This document shows positions 4,223 to 23,232 of a stretch of DNA of 36,584 nucleotides, one piece after another; position 1 is the first letter of the stretch, and the number at the start of each line of letters is the position of its first letter. The DNA comes from an uncultured delta proteobacterium. GTDB taxonomy: Bacteria > Myxococcota_A > Polyangia > Polyangiales > Polyangiaceae. The position numbers were made by a program, and so were the translations under genes. The stretch covers positions 1-36,584 of the forward strand of contig CAIVJW010000077.1 in the NCBI GenBank assembly GCA_903906315.1. Direction: 5' to 3'. The notes under the pieces were generated by a model. It ran no database searches and was not told the DNA's origin. It saw only the letters and a list, made by a program, of their open reading frames with translations.

Positions 4223-5194
4223 ATGGCAGACACCTCCCGCCGCGACGTGCTCCAGCGGATCGGCGCCGCCGCCGCGGTCCTGGGCGGCGCTGCGGTCCTC
4301 GGGCGCGCGCGCTGGGACCAGGGGCACCCCTTCGGCGAGGGCACGCGCGACCGGCCGCAGACGCGCGATTTCCGCCTGAAATCAGGCCCCGGCGAGCTCC
4401 CCCAGCTCGCCGTCGCCACGAAGGACACGGACCCCGCGAGCCTCGTCCGCAAGGCCGTCGAGGCGCTCGGCGGGATGAAGCGCTTCGTCTCGCGCGGCGA
4501 CGTCGTGGTGGTGAAGCCGAACATCGGCTGGGACCGGACGCCCATCCACGCCGCGAACACGAACCCGAAGGTCGTCGCCGAGGTCGTGCGCCTCGCCTTC
4601 GACGCGGGCGCCAAGCGCGTCGTCGTGACCGACGCATCCTGCAACGAGCCCAACCGGTGCTTCCAGCGGTCGGGCATCTGGAAGGCCGCCTACGACGTCG
4701 GCGGCGAGATCGTCCTGCCCGCCGAGCACCGCTTCCGCACCATGCGCCTGCGCGGCGAGGTGCTCGACGAGTGGCTCGTCTACACGCCGATCGTGAACGC
4801 CGACAAGGTCATCAACGTCCCGGTAGCCAAGCACCACAACCTCGCCAAGTACACGGCCGCGATGAAGAACTGGTACGGCACGCTCGGCGGCCGGCGCAAC
4901 CGCCTGCACCAGAACATCGACGTCTCGATCGCCGATCTGGCGACCTTCATGCAGCCCACGCTCACCATCGTCGACGCCGTGCGCGTGCTGCTCCGCAACG
5001 GCCCTCAGGGCGGCAACATCGCCGACGCGAAGGACCTGCACACGGTGATCGCCACCACCGACCAGGTCGCCGCCGACGCCTACGGCTGCCGCCTCATCGG
5101 CCGCACGCCCGAGGAGATCCCGTACATCAAGCTGGCGCACGACCGCGGCCTCGGGACGATGTTCTGGCAGAACCTCCGCCTCGCCGAGGTGTGA
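4223..5194 (+). CDS. DUF362-domain protein with Tat-type signal
   Basis: The protein has 323 residues. The N-terminus MADTSRRDVLQRIGAAAAVLGG has the twin Arg and hydrophobic stretch of a Tat signal, so folded export is likely. The DUF362 core follows: DVVVVKPNIGWDR at about 95, then NPKVVAEVVRLAFDAGAKRVVVTDASCN. A lysine-rich central part (NVPVAKHHNLAKYTAAMKNWYG) precedes QPTLTIVDAVRVLLRNGPQGG and LIGRTPEEIPYIKLA. DUF362 proteins are often linked to iron-sulfur redox chemistry, but their reaction is not known. The stop codon overlaps the GTG start of the polyferredoxin gene, so the two proteins are probably made together and may be partners. ATG 4223 is preferred over upstream frame because the Tat signal begins there. 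An AAGG lies just before it. Confidence 0.85.
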   Translation: MADTSRRDVLQRIGAAAAVLGGAAVLGRARWDQGHPFGEGTRDRPQTRDFRLKSGPGELPQLAVATKDTDPASLVRKAVEALGGMKRFVSRGDVVVVKPNIGWDRTPIHAANTNPKVVAEVVRLAFDAGAKRVVVTDASCNEPNRCFQRSGIWKAAYDVGGEIVLPAEHRFRTMRLRGEVLDEWLVYTPIVNADKVINVPVAKHHNLAKYTAAMKNWYGTLGGRRNRLHQNIDVSIADLATFMQPTLTIVDAVRVLLRNGPQGGNIADAKDLHTVIATTDQVAADAYGCRLIGRTPEEIPYIKLAHDRGLGTMFWQNLRLAEV

Positions 5195-7008
5195 CGGTGG
5201 CCTCGTCCGAGCCCGCGCGCCCCGCCGGCAAGGCCGTCTCCGCGAACGATCTCGGCGGCGCCCTCGACAAGCTGCGCGCGATCCTGCCGAAGTCGAAGGC
5301 CCGCGCGGGTTCGGGGATCCCCGCGCGCAAGGTCATCCGCGCCCTGGTCTGGGCTCGGCGCTTCGCGCAGGCGGGCTTCCTCGGCGTCTTCCTCTGGTTC
5401 CTCTTCCAGACCGCCTTCCGGGGCACGTTCGCGTCCGCCGACACGCGCGTGCGCCTGCCGCTGCCGGTCGAGGGCTTCCTGCTCGCCGACCCGTTCGTCG
5501 GCGCCATGACCTTGCTCTCGACGCGCACCGTCTACCGCGGCCTGCTCTGGTCGCTCGTCACGATCGGCCTCACGGTGGTCTTCGGCCGCGTGTTCTGCGG
5601 CTGGATCTGCCCGTTCGGCACGATCCACCACGTCTTCGCGTGGATCTTCCCCTCGCGCTACGGCAAGGGCAGCAAGCGCGTCGAGTCGAACAAGACCTCG
5701 CCCCGGCAGCGGGTGAAGTACTACCTGCTCTATGCGTTCCTCGCGGCCGCCGCGGCCGGCAGCGCGGCGGGCGGCCTCCTCGACCCGATCTGCGTCGCCG
5801 TGCGCGCCATCGGCCTCGCGGTGATCCCGGCCGCGCAGTACGTGGCCGGCGTGGCCTCGTCCGGCGCCACGGCGACGGGCGTGCGCGCGCTCCAGAGCGG
5901 CGCCGACGCGACCGGTGACTTCCTCGCTCGCACCGTCTGGCAGTCGAAGCAGGTCTATTTCCACCAGACCTGGCTCGTCGGCCTCCTGTTCGTCGCGGTC
6001 CTGTTCCTGAACCGGTTCATCCCGCGATTCTGGTGCAGAGTCCTCTGCCCGCTCGGCGCGCTCCTCGGCGTGTTCGCGCGCTTCGCCCTCTTCGGCATGG
6101 AGAAGGACCACGCGAAGTGCACCGACTGCAACCTGTGCCTCGTGCACTGCCAGGGTGCCGACTCGCCGCAGGGCGGCGTGAAGCACCGGCAGGACGAGTG
6201 CCACATGTGCCTCAACTGCGAGGCCGCGTGCCCCGAGGACGTCATCAAGTTCCGCTTCCTCCCCGGCCGCGCGAGCACGGTCCGCACGCCCGACACCGCC
6301 CGCCGCACGGCCATCGCCACCGCCGCCGCCGGCGCCGCCATGATCCCGGCCGCGCGCATCGCCGACGTCCTCGACACGAACTACTCGAGCAAGGTCATCC
6401 GCCCGCCCGGTTCGGTCGAGGAGCGCGAGTTCCTCGAGCGTTGCATCCGCTGCGCCGAGTGCATGAAGGTCTGCCCCAATAACGCGCTCCACCCCGCGTT
6501 CTTCGAGGCCGGCGTCGAGGGGATCTGGACACCCATCCTCATCCCGCGCATCGGCTACTGCGAGCACTCGTGCGTGCTCTGCGGCCAGGTCTGCCCGACG
6601 GGCGCCATCCAGAAGATCACCGAAGAGCAGAAGCTCGGCGTCGGGATGAAGCCAGTCTCGATCGGCACCGCGTTCTACGACGTCGGCCGCTGTCTGCCCT
6701 GGTCGATGGCCACGCCGTGCATCGTCTGCGAGGAGTTCTGCCCGACCTCGCCCAAAGCCATCTGGGTCGAGGAAGCCACCGTCCCGAAGCGGCTGCCCAT
6801 CGCCGGCCAGGACGGCAAGGAGCCGGAGATGACGACGGTGCACGTGCAGCGCCCGCACGTCGACCCCGCGCTCTGCATCGGCTGCGGCGCGTGCGAGAAG
6901 GTCTGCCCCGTGCAGGACCAGCCGGCCGTCTACGTGACGAACGTCGGCGAGACGCGCTCGAAGACCAACGTCATCCTGCTCGAGAACACGAAATACTCGG
7001 GGAGCTAG
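5191..7008 (+). CDS. NapH/NapG-like membrane polyferredoxin
   Basis: This 605-residue protein looks like a fusion of NapH- and NapG/MauM-like parts. The N-terminal half has about four or five membrane helices and two CxxxCP sites: CGWICPFG at about residue 135 and CRVLCPLG at about 282. The Cys-rich half then holds 4Fe-4S motifs: CTDCNLC (310) with CHMCLNCEAACP (337), CIRCAECMKVCP (418), CEHSCVLCGQVCP (456), CIVCEEFCP (510) and CIGCGACEKVCP (561). RRTAIATAAAGAA at about 370-382 looks like an internal Tat-type signal or membrane anchor, exactly where a NapG protein would start. It most likely moves electrons across or along the membrane, from quinol to the DUF362 partner or the reverse. GTG 5191 overlaps the DUF362 stop; GTG 5197 is an alternative start. 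Confidence 0.88.
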   Translation: MTVASSEPARPAGKAVSANDLGGALDKLRAILPKSKARAGSGIPARKVIRALVWARRFAQAGFLGVFLWFLFQTAFRGTFASADTRVRLPLPVEGFLLADPFVGAMTLLSTRTVYRGLLWSLVTIGLTVVFGRVFCGWICPFGTIHHVFAWIFPSRYGKGSKRVESNKTSPRQRVKYYLLYAFLAAAAAGSAAGGLLDPICVAVRAIGLAVIPAAQYVAGVASSGATATGVRALQSGADATGDFLARTVWQSKQVYFHQTWLVGLLFVAVLFLNRFIPRFWCRVLCPLGALLGVFARFALFGMEKDHAKCTDCNLCLVHCQGADSPQGGVKHRQDECHMCLNCEAACPEDVIKFRFLPGRASTVRTPDTARRTAIATAAAGAAMIPAARIADVLDTNYSSKVIRPPGSVEEREFLERCIRCAECMKVCPNNALHPAFFEAGVEGIWTPILIPRIGYCEHSCVLCGQVCPTGAIQKITEEQKLGVGMKPVSIGTAFYDVGRCLPWSMATPCIVCEEFCPTSPKAIWVEEATVPKRLPIAGQDGKEPEMTTVHVQRPHVDPALCIGCGACEKVCPVQDQPAVYVTNVGETRSKTNVILLENTKYSGS

Positions 7009-18304: not shown

Positions 18305-21300
18305 TCAGTGGAAGTCGCGCGAGGGCGCGACGAGCGGCTCGCCGCCGGGCAGATCGAGGCGTTCCATGCGCCGGACGAGGACGTGGACGACCTCTCCTTG
18401 GCGCTCGACGCGGCCGTGGACGAGGAGGATCTTGGCGTGGCGCGCGGTGACGTAGTGATCGTCGAAGACCTGCTTCTGCACGATGAGGTTGGCGACGCCG
18501 GTCTCGTCCTCGAGCGTGAAGAAGGTCACGCCGCTCGCGGTCACGGGGCGCTGCCGGCCGAGCACGAGGCCGGCCACGGCGACGCTCGCGCCGTCACGCA
18601 GACCGACGAGCTCCTTCGCGAGGCGCACGCGCGCGCCCCCCTTTCCTGCGAGGCGTGGGCGCACGTGCCGCATCGGGTGGTCGCGGAGCGACAGGCCGAC
18701 GCGGCCGTAGTCGAGGACGAGCTGCTCGACCGGCCGCAGGGGCCGGAGCTTCGGATCGTCGCCGACCTCGAGCGGGACGCCCTCGAAGAGGCCGCCGAGG
18801 CGCGGGGCGCGCGCCTTCCACAGCGCGTCGCGGCGGCCGGGGACGAGCGCCGCTACCGCGCCGGCCTCGGCCAGCGCCTCGAGGTCGTCCTTCGCGAGGC
18901 TCGTCCGACGGACGAGGTCGTCCAGATGCGCGAAGGGCGCGGCCGCGCGGGCCTCCTCGAGGGAGCGCGCCGCCGCCCGCCCGAGGCCACGCACCTGCCG
19001 CAACCCGAGCCGCAGGGCGGACGGGTGCCGGTCCTCGCCGGGCTGCGCGCCCGTCATGTCGGCCGGCTCGAGCGTCGAGTCCCACGCACTGGCGACCACG
19101 CACACGGGGCGCACCTCGCCGCCGTGGGCCTGCAGATCGCGCACGAGGCTCGACGCGCTGTAGAAGCCCATCGGCTGCGCGTTGAGCAGGGAGCACGTGA
19201 ACTCGACGGGATGGTGGACCTTGAGCCACGCCGACGCATAGACGAGCAAGGCGAAGCTCGCCGCGTGCGACTCCGGAAAGCCGTACTCGCCGAAGCCCTG
19301 GATCTGCTGGTAGAGCGCCTCGCCGAAGCGCGCGGCGATGCCGCGTTCGGCGAAGCCCGAGAGCAGGCGTTCGCGGTGCTGCTCGAGGCGGCCGTGCTTC
19401 TTCCAGGCCGCCATGTCGCGCCGGAGCTGGTCGGCCTCGCCCGCGGAGTAGCCCGCGCCGACCATGGCAATCTGCATGACCTGCTCCTGAAAGAGTGGCA
19501 CTCCGAGGGTCCGTGACAGGATGGGCTCGAGGCACGGGTGCGGCGCGGTGGGCGCCTCCTCGCCCGTGCGCCGGCGGAGGTACGGGTGCACCATCCCGCC
19601 CTGGATCGGGCCGGGGCGGACGATCGCGACCTCGATGACCAGATCGTAGAACACCCTCGGCCGCAGGCGCGGCAGCATGGCCATCTGCGCGCGGCTCTCG
19701 ATCTGAAAGACGCCCACCGTGTCGGCGTGGGAGATGGCCTCGTAGACGGCGGGGTCCTCGGCCGGGATGGCGGCGAGCGCGGCGATCGGGTCGAACGCAC
19801 GACCCCCAGCCACCAAAGCCCCATTTTTAGCGATTTCCGGCGGACATGGTGAGTCGGAAAGGGCGTCTCTGCTCTCCTCCCCTCCCCCCGGAAATCGGGG
19901 GGAAGGGCCGGGGCCGGGGGGCGCCTCGTGGATCAGCGCCAGTGTCTTGCGGATGGCCGTCAGCATGCCGAGCGCGAGGACGTCGACCTTGAAGAAGCCG
20001 AGCGCGTCGAGGTCGTCCTTGTCCCAGGGGATGACCGTGCGACCCTCCATGCGCGCGGGCTCGACCGGCGCCACGTGATCCAGCGGGTCGGCCGAGAGGA
20101 CGAAGCCGCCGACGTGGATGGAGAGGTGGCGCGGGAAGCCCTCGAGCGCGCCGGCGAGCAGGAGCACCTGACGGAGGCGGGCGTCCTTCGGGTCGAGGCC
20201 GGCCTCGGCGACGCGGCGCTCGGTGAGGTCGCCGAGGTCCCAGTGCGTGACGAGGCCGGAGAGCAGGCCGACCTGGTCCTCCGAGAGGCCGAAGACCCGG
20301 CCGACCTCGCGGACGGCGCTCTTGCCGCGATAAGCGATGATCTCGGACACCATGGCGGCGCGGTCGCGGCCGTAGGTCGCGTAGATCTCCTGGATGACCT
20401 CCTCGCGGCGCTCGTGCTCGAAGTCGACGTCGATGTCGGGGGGCTCGGCGCGCTCGGCCGAGAGGAAGCGCTCGAAGAGCAGGCTCGATCGCGCCGGGTC
20501 GACGGCGGTGATGCCGAGGACAAAGCAGACGGCGCTGTTGGCGGCGCTGCCGCGGCCCTGGCAGAGGATCCGGCGCCGGCGCGCCATGGCCACGATCTGC
20601 TGCACGCTGAGGAAGTACGCGGCGACGTCGAGGTGCGCGATGAGGGCGAGCTCCTTCTCTATTTGCGCGCGGACGGCGGGGGGCGTGCCGCCCGGGTAGC
20701 GATCGAGACATCCCTCCTCGACGAGCCGACGGAGGGCGTCGTCGGCCGTCTCGCCCTCGCGACAGAGGGTCTCGCTCGGGAAGCGATACCGAAGCTCGGC
20801 GAGGGAAAAGTGGCACTCTTCGGCGACCTCGACGGTGCGCGCGACCCACGCGGGGCGCTCGCGGAAGAGGGCGCGCATCTCGGAGGCCGATCGCAGCGTC
20901 GCCTCGGCGTTGGGCGAGAGCGCGGTGCCGGCGCGGTCGAGCGTGGTCCTGTGACGGATGCAGTGGAGGACGTCGGCGAGCGGCTTGCGACTGCCGTGGT
21001 GGTAGAGCGCGCGGGCGGTCGCGAGGGGGCGCAGGCCGAAGCGCGCCTCGATGGCGTCGGCGGCGGCGAGGCGCGCCGGGTCGTCGGGATCGAGGTGGCG
21101 CCACGCGGCGACGAAGGCGCGGTCGGCGAAGGCGTCGCGGAGGGCGCCGAGCACCTCGTCCGAACCGGGCGCGCGGTCCAGATCCGAGCGGTGGATCGGG
21201 CGGATGGCGACGAGGCCGCGCGAGGCGGCGGCGACGGCGGCGAGGCCGATGCCCGCGGAGCCCTTCTCGTGGCCCGCGTGGGCGGCCGTGAGCAGGCGGC

Positions 21301-21583
21301 AGAGGCTCGAGTAGCCCTCGTGGTCGGCCGCGACGAGCGCGACCGTGCCGGGGGCGCCCTCGAGCGTGAGCTCGGCGCCGACGAGCACGCGCTGGCCGGC
21401 GGTCTTGCCCTCGGCGTGCGCGCGCACGACGCCGTAGAGGCCGTCGCGGTCGCAGATCGCGAGCGCCGAGAGGTCGAGGTCCTTCGCGCGGCGGACGAGC
21501 TCGTCTGGGTGACTGGCGCCCTCGAGGAACGAGAAGCACGAGCGGCCGAGGAGCTCGGCGAAGCCGGGGGCTACTCCATCCAT
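18305..21583 (-). CDS. dnaE2: Error-prone DNA polymerase III alpha subunit DnaE2 (ImuC)
   Basis: This 1092-residue C-family polymerase is the catalytic subunit of the ImuA-ImuB-DnaE2 translesion mutasome. The N-terminal PHP domain begins YAELL-like (FAELLGRSCFSFLEGASHP). The palm has PPDIDVDFEHERREEV at about 380 (catalytic Asp pair) and the third Asp in FKVDVLALGMLTA at about 530. VFQIESRAQMAML, RPGPIQGGMVHPYLRRR and GFGEYGFPESHAASFALLVYAS are hallmark DnaE2 stretches. A C-terminal OB fold includes VTFFTLEDETGVANLIV. Residues about 553-591 (nt 19810-19925) are a low-complexity Pro/Gly stretch not expected in the family; see the repeat entry. ATG 21583 overlaps the imuB stop by 13 nt, so the two are translationally coupled. 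It lacks the usual beta-clamp tail of DnaE1. Confidence 0.95.
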   Translation of the reverse strand: MDGVAPGFAELLGRSCFSFLEGASHPDELVRRAKDLDLSALAICDRDGLYGVVRAHAEGKTAGQRVLVGAELTLEGAPGTVALVAADHEGYSSLCRLLTAAHAGHEKGSAGIGLAAVAAASRGLVAIRPIHRSDLDRAPGSDEVLGALRDAFADRAFVAAWRHLDPDDPARLAAADAIEARFGLRPLATARALYHHGSRKPLADVLHCIRHRTTLDRAGTALSPNAEATLRSASEMRALFRERPAWVARTVEVAEECHFSLAELRYRFPSETLCREGETADDALRRLVEEGCLDRYPGGTPPAVRAQIEKELALIAHLDVAAYFLSVQQIVAMARRRRILCQGRGSAANSAVCFVLGITAVDPARSSLLFERFLSAERAEPPDIDVDFEHERREEVIQEIYATYGRDRAAMVSEIIAYRGKSAVREVGRVFGLSEDQVGLLSGLVTHWDLGDLTERRVAEAGLDPKDARLRQVLLLAGALEGFPRHLSIHVGGFVLSADPLDHVAPVEPARMEGRTVIPWDKDDLDALGFFKVDVLALGMLTAIRKTLALIHEAPPGPGPSPRFPGGGEESRDALSDSPCPPEIAKNGALVAGGRAFDPIAALAAIPAEDPAVYEAISHADTVGVFQIESRAQMAMLPRLRPRVFYDLVIEVAIVRPGPIQGGMVHPYLRRRTGEEAPTAPHPCLEPILSRTLGVPLFQEQVMQIAMVGAGYSAGEADQLRRDMAAWKKHGRLEQHRERLLSGFAERGIAARFGEALYQQIQGFGEYGFPESHAASFALLVYASAWLKVHHPVEFTCSLLNAQPMGFYSASSLVRDLQAHGGEVRPVCVVASAWDSTLEPADMTGAQPGEDRHPSALRLGLRQVRGLGRAAARSLEEARAAAPFAHLDDLVRRTSLAKDDLEALAEAGAVAALVPGRRDALWKARAPRLGGLFEGVPLEVGDDPKLRPLRPVEQLVLDYGRVGLSLRDHPMRHVRPRLAGKGGARVRLAKELVGLRDGASVAVAGLVLGRQRPVTASGVTFFTLEDETGVANLIVQKQVFDDHYVTARHAKILLVHGRVERQGEVVHVLVRRMERLDLPGGEPLVAPSRDFH
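19815..19925. repeat. Inverted-repeat element inserted in frame in dnaE2
   Basis: This about 110-bp stretch differs from the surrounding coding DNA. CGATTTCCGG (19831-19840) is the exact reverse complement of CCGGAAATCG (19888-19897). A second hairpin, TCCCCCCG / GAAAT / CGGGGGGA, spans 19883-19903, followed by a GGCCGGGGCCGGGGG run. It looks like an intergenic palindromic element. It is read through as a Pro/Gly/Ser-rich insert between LALI and IPAEDP of DnaE2, where relatives have about ten residues. No stop or frame loss occurs. The exact borders cannot be set without comparing other copies. Confidence 0.6.
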
Positions 21584-23232
21584 CCCTGAAGGACCCCCTC
21601 CCCCGTCGACCGGTCGACGAAGGCCCACGCCTCCCCGCACGCCGCGCCCTCCGCCCCGTTTGCGGCAGAAACGAGCCAGGCGCGGGCGTAGTCGCGCGAC
21701 GTCGGCGAGGGCGTCCACCAGCCGACGCCGTCGAGGCGCAGCGCGAACTCGACCCGATCCAGGGTATAGAGCTGCCGGTCGACGTACCCGCCGGCGCCGC
21801 GCGAGAGCTTGCCAATCCCGACGCCGGCCGGGAGGATGCGAGTCGGCTCGATTGCCGCCAAAGAGAAAGAAGAAGCCCGGATGACAAGCGACGCAGATCG
21901 GACCGAATCGGCCCCCGCGATCTCTCCCACGGGGACGAGGCGGGAGCGCGCCTCGGGCTGGTGGGCGTCGACGACCTCGAGCACGCCCACGCGCTCGGCG
22001 CCGATCTCGGCGCTGAGCTCGGCGAGCAGGGCCGGCAGCGCGTCCGGGCTCACCGCCGTGCCGCGCGAGAGGTCGAGCTGAACGCGCCGCGCCTCGGTGA
22101 TCTGCGGGATCGTGAGCGAGAGGCCGATGGCCGGCGCGGGCAGCTCGGCGCGCTCGAGCTTGGCCTTGAGCGCGCGGAGGAGATCGTTCGGGTCGGCGAG
22201 CGGCGCGGGCAGGTCGACCGACAGCGCGAGCTCGTCGGCGACGCCGCGCAGGCGCGCGATCGACCGGTCGAGCGAGATGGTCACCTCGAGGCGCGCGGCC
22301 GCCTCGCCCCGCGCCGAGAGCCGCGCGCCGAGCCGCGAGGTCATCGCGCGCAGCACGAAGATCAGCGACTCGGCGCCGAGGACGCCCTCCTCGAACGAGG
22401 TCGCCTCCTCGAGCACCCGCGGCGCGACCCAGGGCACGAGGGGCGCGGCGTCGCGCCCGGCCGCGAGATCGAGCGTGATCGCCCCCTGCGAGCCGAGGCG
22501 CGCGCCGAGGCTCGACCGGGGCAGGCGCGCGAGATCGCCGACCGTCACCACCCCGAGCCGCAGGAGAAAGGTCACCATCCCGGCGTCGATCGGCAGGCAT
22601 TGCACGGGCAGGCCGGCCATCGCCCGCGCCCCCTCGCCCGCGGGCGCCACGGCCGGGCAGCCGGCGATCGCGCCGTGCCGCGCGAGGGCCTGCGCGATCC
22701 GGGGGCCGTCCGCGATCGCCGCGTGCACGCGGTGGCCGAGCGGCGCGAGGCGGGCGTCGAGCTCGGCGAGCAGGGCCTCCTCGCCGCCGACGAGGTGCGC
22801 GGCCCCGGTGACGTCGATCCACACCGTGTCGAAGGGCGCGCCTCCCGTGGGCGATCGGAGGCGCGCCGACTCGCGGAGCACGATCGCCGCCGTCGTGCCG
22901 AGCCCGAGCGCGATCTCGGCCACGCGCCCGAGGGCGGCGTCGATCTCGGCGTACGTCACGCGGTGCACCGTCAGGCGGCCGACGAGCGCCGCCGCCTCCG
23001 CGACGCGCTGCCCGGGCCGCACGCCGTGGCGACGCGCCTCGTCGTCGACCGCGTCGAGAATGGCCATCCCGGGCGCCTCCTCGGGACTGCCACTCTCGTC
23101 CGATGCGCGGTCGCCGGCGAGGGGCGCGAGGAGGACCCCGAACGGCCCTGTGACCGCGACGCGCTGCCGCACGAGCTCGCACGCGAGGGCGGGCAGCACG
23201 ACGGAGACGATGCGGTGAGGAGGGCTATCCAT
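21571..23232 (-). CDS. imuB: Y-family polymerase-like protein ImuB
   Basis: This 553-residue protein is the non-catalytic adaptor that links ImuA and DnaE2 to the sliding clamp. It has the Y-family layout but not its active site. The first strand reads RIVSVVLPALACE, without the metal-binding Asp of DinB. The later strand is FDTVWIDVTGAAHLVGGE, the ImuB-type replacement. The fingers/thumb helix-hairpin-helix region is LRLGVVTVGDLARLP. A little-finger domain follows (about 300-400). The C-terminus, rich in Arg/Trp (GWWTPSPTSRDYARAWLVS), matches the family tail. ATG 23232 lacks a clear ribosome binding site, and an inverted repeat sits immediately upstream. Usually imuA and imuB nearly touch; here they are 110 bp apart. 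Confidence 0.92.
   Translation of the reverse strand: MDSPPHRIVSVVLPALACELVRQRVAVTGPFGVLLAPLAGDRASDESGSPEEAPGMAILDAVDDEARRHGVRPGQRVAEAAALVGRLTVHRVTYAEIDAALGRVAEIALGLGTTAAIVLRESARLRSPTGGAPFDTVWIDVTGAAHLVGGEEALLAELDARLAPLGHRVHAAIADGPRIAQALARHGAIAGCPAVAPAGEGARAMAGLPVQCLPIDAGMVTFLLRLGVVTVGDLARLPRSSLGARLGSQGAITLDLAAGRDAAPLVPWVAPRVLEEATSFEEGVLGAESLIFVLRAMTSRLGARLSARGEAAARLEVTISLDRSIARLRGVADELALSVDLPAPLADPNDLLRALKAKLERAELPAPAIGLSLTIPQITEARRVQLDLSRGTAVSPDALPALLAELSAEIGAERVGVLEVVDAHQPEARSRLVPVGEIAGADSVRSASLVIRASSFSLAAIEPTRILPAGVGIGKLSRGAGGYVDRQLYTLDRVEFALRLDGVGWWTPSPTSRDYARAWLVSAANGAEGAACGEAWAFVDRSTGEGVLQGWME

Follow-up and report, generated by a model that had tools for sequence, protein, structure and literature searches.

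The window analysed here is a contig of 36,584 nucleotides (C77) in an assembly of 8.79 Mb, with 455 contigs and an estimated completeness of 98.55%. On its reverse strand lies dnaE2 (18305–21583), encoding an error-prone DNA polymerase of the ImuC type with 1092 residues. The gene was delimited with a home-made gene caller; its product scores 1279.7 bits against NCBIfam NF004225 (error-prone DNA polymerase; cut-off 939) and contains the Pfam domains PHP, DNA_pol3_alpha, DNA_pol3_finger, HHH_6 and tRNA_anti-codon, with the palm match spanning residues 283–537 and the finger match residues 602–747. It is preceded by an ImuB-like gene (21571–23232; Pfam IMS and IMS_C). Among the matches listed, the closest named DnaE2 proteins come from a Polyangiaceae MAG (60%) and a Myxococcales MAG (57%). 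Asp534 is invariant in our alignment (A2) and, from established knowledge of the DnaE2 family, we take it to be the third catalytic aspartate.

An in-frame insert between palm and finger

Between the palm and finger matches, starting 20 residues past Asp534, DnaE2 contains an insert (residues 554–596; 19796–19924, reverse strand), defined at the protein level by comparison with relatives, Pfam and AlphaFold2. The insert is real, is read in frame without a stop codon and consists to 49% of Pro, Gly and Ser, against 20% for the entire protein. The original prediction, made from the letters of the window, had described just such a Pro/Gly/Ser-rich stretch about 20 residues after the third catalytic Asp. 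It had also placed about ten residues at this site in relatives, and Taq Pol III alpha (3e0d) indeed has residues 638–647 between the aligned blocks. The open frame is in itself unremarkable, since across 12 copies of the underlying element 52 of the 72 frames contain no stop. Element length, ancestral loop length and reading frame together leave the borders of the insert unfixed.

At the DNA level the insert corresponds to a dispersed palindromic element of about 119 bp (19803–19921, no strand assigned), delimited by copies elsewhere and by alignment to the copy on contig C186. Its two hairpin units are inverted relative to each other, and C-tracts and G-tracts form its ends. The right unit (19878–19921, forward strand), a hairpin with a G-tract tail, is the better kept and scores 53.9 bits with covariance model R1. 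The left unit (19803–19850, reverse strand) is degenerate and was placed by aligning it with the corresponding half of the C186 copy; it is too decayed to give a match to R1 at E ≤ 0.1. The perfect 10-bp arms described in the original prediction, CGATTTCCGG (19831–19840) and CCGGAAATCG (19888–19897), both given on the forward strand, are confirmed. The hairpin with an 8-bp stem (TCCCCCCG/CGGGGGGA) is present too, within a longer pair of 12 nt with 92% complementarity.

The 10-bp palindrome of the dnaE2 copy is by itself at chance level. The window contains 29 pairs of perfect 10-bp arms within 60 bp, where 40 shuffles give a mean of 23.8 (range 9–42), and 48 of 1000 shuffled versions of the element contain such a pair. 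The gapless inverted-repeat score of the insert has p = 0.073, and the folding z-scores are weak (DNA −0.48, RNA −1.55). The case is therefore carried by the genomic copies and not by the palindrome.

The AlphaFold2 model of DnaE2, from 47 aligned sequences, has a mean pLDDT of 86.9 and a pTM of 0.88, and its best solved neighbours are the Pol III alpha chains 4iqj, 2hpi, 7pu7 and 3e0d. Segments with pLDDT below 50 are residues 1–3, 560–592 and 657–664, the only long one being the insert. The insert is thus predicted to be unstructured in an otherwise confident polymerase and would lie at the surface, in keeping with the suggestion of a loop outside the fold. It is probably translated as a floppy loop. 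Its low pLDDT may stem in part from the fact that no other sequence covers it.

Absence of the insert from most relatives

Thirty family and order relatives were searched, none of the same genus, which is why an exact empty site and a target duplication are not readable here. In the 25 with a match that extends across the site, the stretch compared has 63–86 residues, against 105 in the DnaE2 of the window. Left out of this comparison were the own copy (L050), a DnaE1-like match (L079) and three matches that do not span the site (L058, L073, L075). The longest loops within the family (82–86 residues in L051, L052 and L053) lack this element; inspected by eye as candidate further palindromes, they revealed nothing clear. 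The wider family gave the same picture: among the best 80 of the listed DnaE2 matches in genome contigs, the stretch is exactly 63 residues in 73 and 57–73 residues in 78, and the only longer ones are L092 (99 residues) and L159 (115). The insert is therefore not a general feature of DnaE2, a possibility raised with the original prediction; 78 of these 80 proteins do without it.

A dispersed repeat family in the genome

The element is one of many. Searched with at most 3 mismatches, a 19-base core is found 21 times in the 8.79-Mb genome, and its reversed control not once. A 47-position unit model was built from 18 typed units, which match it by construction. Applied to 150 of 4739 candidates, it gives at least 38 hits to single units at E ≤ 0.1 and misses four of the 21 places found with the core pattern (C188:1095, C200, C286, C430). 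The many copies anticipated for the element are thus present, and a single genomic copy, which would have spoken against it, is ruled out. The nearest relative of the dnaE2 copy, on C186, aligns to window positions 19802–19921 with 74% identity over about 120 bp (E = 9.9e-14), and the better-kept copy on C34, used as query, finds 20 matches at E ≤ 0.01 in the same genome. Stems of the form CTCTCCC..GGGAGAG mark a sister type, found 17 times in the genome at E ≤ 0.05.

Expansion of the element was local, because 15 copies of a 17-base core (at most 1 mismatch) occur in this genome and at most one in each of the 97 other genomes of the family, ten of which have one. The reversed control of this core occurs once in each of two of the 98 family genomes. 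A Y1/RAYT transposase was considered as the mobiliser and set aside: Y1_Tnp (PF01797) has no match in this genome, at its 98.55% completeness, and matches in five of 14 control genomes.

A typical copy runs from C-tracts through a hairpin of the CCCCC-GATTTC-GGGGG type, a spacer and an inverted hairpin to G-tracts, often with GGGGGTAGGGGG. Opposite-strand unit pairs at C34, C197, C116, C186 and others form inverted dimers with spacers of 20–100 bp. In many copies GGGGGTAGGGGG lies 3' of the hairpin and not at the foot of the stem; the dnaE2 copy reads GGGGCCGGGGGG there. At least one G-quadruplex-type motif on either strand, by pattern match only, occurs in 20 of 32 loci, against 0.269 per kb in the stretches. 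By eye, several copies, C34, C449, C228 and C203, are flanked by GACTCGAGTTTCGC-like and GCGAAACTCAAGTC-like ends; C34 (L030) and C449 (L032) are longer copies within inverted GACTCGAGTTTCGC-like ends, and C449 has, again by eye, a 10-base direct repeat, CCGCCTCGGA, on either side. The dnaE2 and C186 copies have neither type of end.

Placement relative to genes

Placement was read from a home-made codon-usage gene caller at the 32 loci with model hits, the four pattern-only matches being excluded. Although the stretches are 85% coding, 25 loci are intergenic, five intragenic and two at contig edges. The intergenic gaps are unidirectional in 13 cases, convergent in eight and divergent in four; convergent gaps thus make up 8 of 25, against 26 of 180 neighbouring gene pairs. 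Two intergenic copies (C250 and C447) overlap the 3' end of a gene, and at C250 the copy encodes the C-terminal tail of a TetR-like regulator (L214:3722-4426).

The five intragenic hosts, a count limited by the 150 of 4739 candidates scored with the model, are dnaE2, a DUF2126/transglutaminase gene (C186), a gene for a membrane-like protein without family match (C247), a type ISP restriction enzyme (C420) and UvrA (C322). The element is translated in frame in dnaE2 and in the DUF2126 gene. The latter was considered as a second clean empty-site case and rejected, because its linker is hypervariable (135 residues here, 117–166 in relatives) and its length does not demonstrate a gain. The copies in C247, C420 and C322 are of the sister type with weak model scores (E 0.01–0.08; 0.035 for the type ISP enzyme and 0.08 for the unit in UvrA). 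The putative insert in UvrA has about 11 extra residues relative to three solved UvrA chains, which is suggestive only.

The open frame on C322 (L242:1121-7001) spans at least 1960 residues and matches UvrA twice, at 145–1075 and again from 1446. It thus encodes a fused double UvrA, and the small repeat-like in-frame insert lies in the first copy. On C420 (L240:2211-6722) the type ISP restriction-modification enzyme contains an in-frame repeat-like peptide between helicase parts.

Inserts in the DnaE2 of other bacteria

A MAG titled Rhizobium sp. Q54 (L159) has, at the same DnaE2 site (4637–4736), an inverted pair with 38-nt arms that are 92% complementary. This palindromic dimer is itself dispersed: counting this copy, the genome of L159 has 55 matches spread over 37 places. 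Further on in the same gene (5641–5796) lies another palindromic insert, related to the first and likewise in frame. The palindrome in L159 is independent of the one in the window, at a site shared across two phyla. In Roseomonas genomospecies 6 (L148; 5383–5512) a palindromic dimer occupies another DnaE2 loop; counting this copy, that genome has 72 matches spread over 41 places. A third long insert at the site of interest, of 36 residues in Acuticoccus yangtzensis (L092; 4633–4773), was tried as a palindrome and is non-palindromic (p = 0.73). Inserts elsewhere in DnaE2 contain inverted repeats in L150 (p = 0.03) and L085 (p = 0.000), both values from 300 shuffles and uncorrected. Across 81 DnaE2 proteins there are 11 inserts of at least 20 residues, in five of which an inverted repeat reaches p ≤ 0.03, compared with 0.073 for the window copy (all uncorrected). 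About six DnaE2 loops accept such inserts, so that two palindromes at one loop are not in themselves improbable.

Discussion

We propose that a family of dispersed palindromic repeats, specific to this genome and resembling REP dimers, gave rise to the insert: a degenerate copy landed in a tolerant loop between palm and finger of DnaE2. We put the probability of this reading at roughly 0.86, with the caveat that the genome is a many-contig assembly. The element would have arrived in dnaE2 as a non-autonomous mobile element. Its survival there would follow from a high GC content with a scarcity of stops, from a length that preserved the reading frame and from a loop tolerant of some 36–42 extra flexible residues. 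Its effect on the polymerase is probably nearly neutral.

Several features of the insert would also be expected of a hypervariable low-complexity linker grown by slippage, whose palindromic look reflects GC-rich DNA: the palindrome is at chance level, loop length varies among relatives and the long insert of L092 at the same site is non-palindromic. However, slippage does not account for an alignment of some 120 bp to the C186 copy that takes in both units and the spacer, and it is contradicted by the presence of the family elsewhere in the genome; we regard it as very improbable. Mobilisation by a transposase as a MITE, with longer terminal inverted repeats and the hairpin dimer as its core only, has the flanking ends of C34, C449, C228 and C203 and the direct repeat around C449 to recommend it. 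Such ends are lacking from the dnaE2 and C186 copies, and a direct repeat is seen in few copies only, which leaves this an unlikely, if serious, alternative.

The insert might instead have been retained for an effect on DnaE2, such as altered polymerase activity or partner binding. A speculation along these lines exists for repair genes (Di Nocera 2013, PMC3733652), and the independent palindromes in L159 and L148 point in the same direction; yet the insert is predicted to be unstructured and one copy has decayed, and such a role seems improbable. Removal or skipping of the element at the RNA or translation level would draw on its predicted RNA hairpin, but the frame is open and removal hence unneeded, the RNA z-score is only −1.55 and Rfam at gathering scores has no family in the window. 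We find this scarcely credible.

The closest description of the dnaE2 insert is a REP-type dimer within a gene. The original prediction had likened it to the in-frame palindromic elements of Rickettsia, and the likeness holds in that both are palindromic repeats whose host genes, unrelated to one another, translate them in frame. It does not extend to placement: according to the review PMC10969869, the Rickettsia elements are about 150 bp long and nearly half of them lie within ORFs, whereas here most copies are extragenic. REPs are hairpins of 20–40 bp in many, mostly extragenic copies; the 47-position unit with its matches and the 25 of 32 intergenic loci fit that description. In Di Nocera 2013 (PMC3733652), REPs of the GTAG and CGTC super-families are likewise short hairpin units, often inverted dimers with a spacer, that are mostly extragenic with a preference for convergent or unidirectional gaps; some copies are read in frame within host genes, among which dnaE2 and uvrA are named. 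Those REPs have an unpaired GTAG or CGTC motif at one end of the stem. In the element neither motif sits at the 5' base of the stem, and a GTAG-containing G-tract lies 3' of the hairpin in many copies. It shares the inverted hairpin pair with REPINs, which, in contrast, have a cognate Y1 tyrosine transposase (RAYT, TnpA-REP). Like MITEs it is small and non-coding, with inverted ends and without a transposase of its own, although neither terminal repeats nor a target duplication can be made out clearly at the dnaE2 copy.

Palindromic repeats read in frame in dnaE2 are already known. PMC3733652 reports REPs wholly within ORFs in several species, with many hosts in DNA synthesis and repair, DnaE2 and UvrA among them; Myxococcota go unmentioned there, with no occurrence of 'myxococc'. 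Our literature search found no report from Myxococcota and no later paper on dnaE2 palindromes. New are the lineage (the nearest named DnaE2 relatives are Myxococcota), a family of this kind in a genome in which no Y1/RAYT transposase was found, and the site shared across two phyla. Since unrelated dispersed palindromes sit at the palm-finger loop both here and in L159, we suggest, tentatively and with more doubt than confidence, that this loop is a recurrent landing site and that DnaE2, perhaps repair genes generally, are preferred or specially tolerant hosts across phyla.

Protein-coding palindromic repeats are thus not a peculiarity of Rickettsia and occur where no RAYT transposase is found. 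With the list of Di Nocera and two further DnaE2 cases, the question of why error-prone polymerases and repair genes receive such repeats can be addressed by direct counting. The dnaE2 site itself offers a polymerase with a removable loop of 40 residues, ready for experiment.
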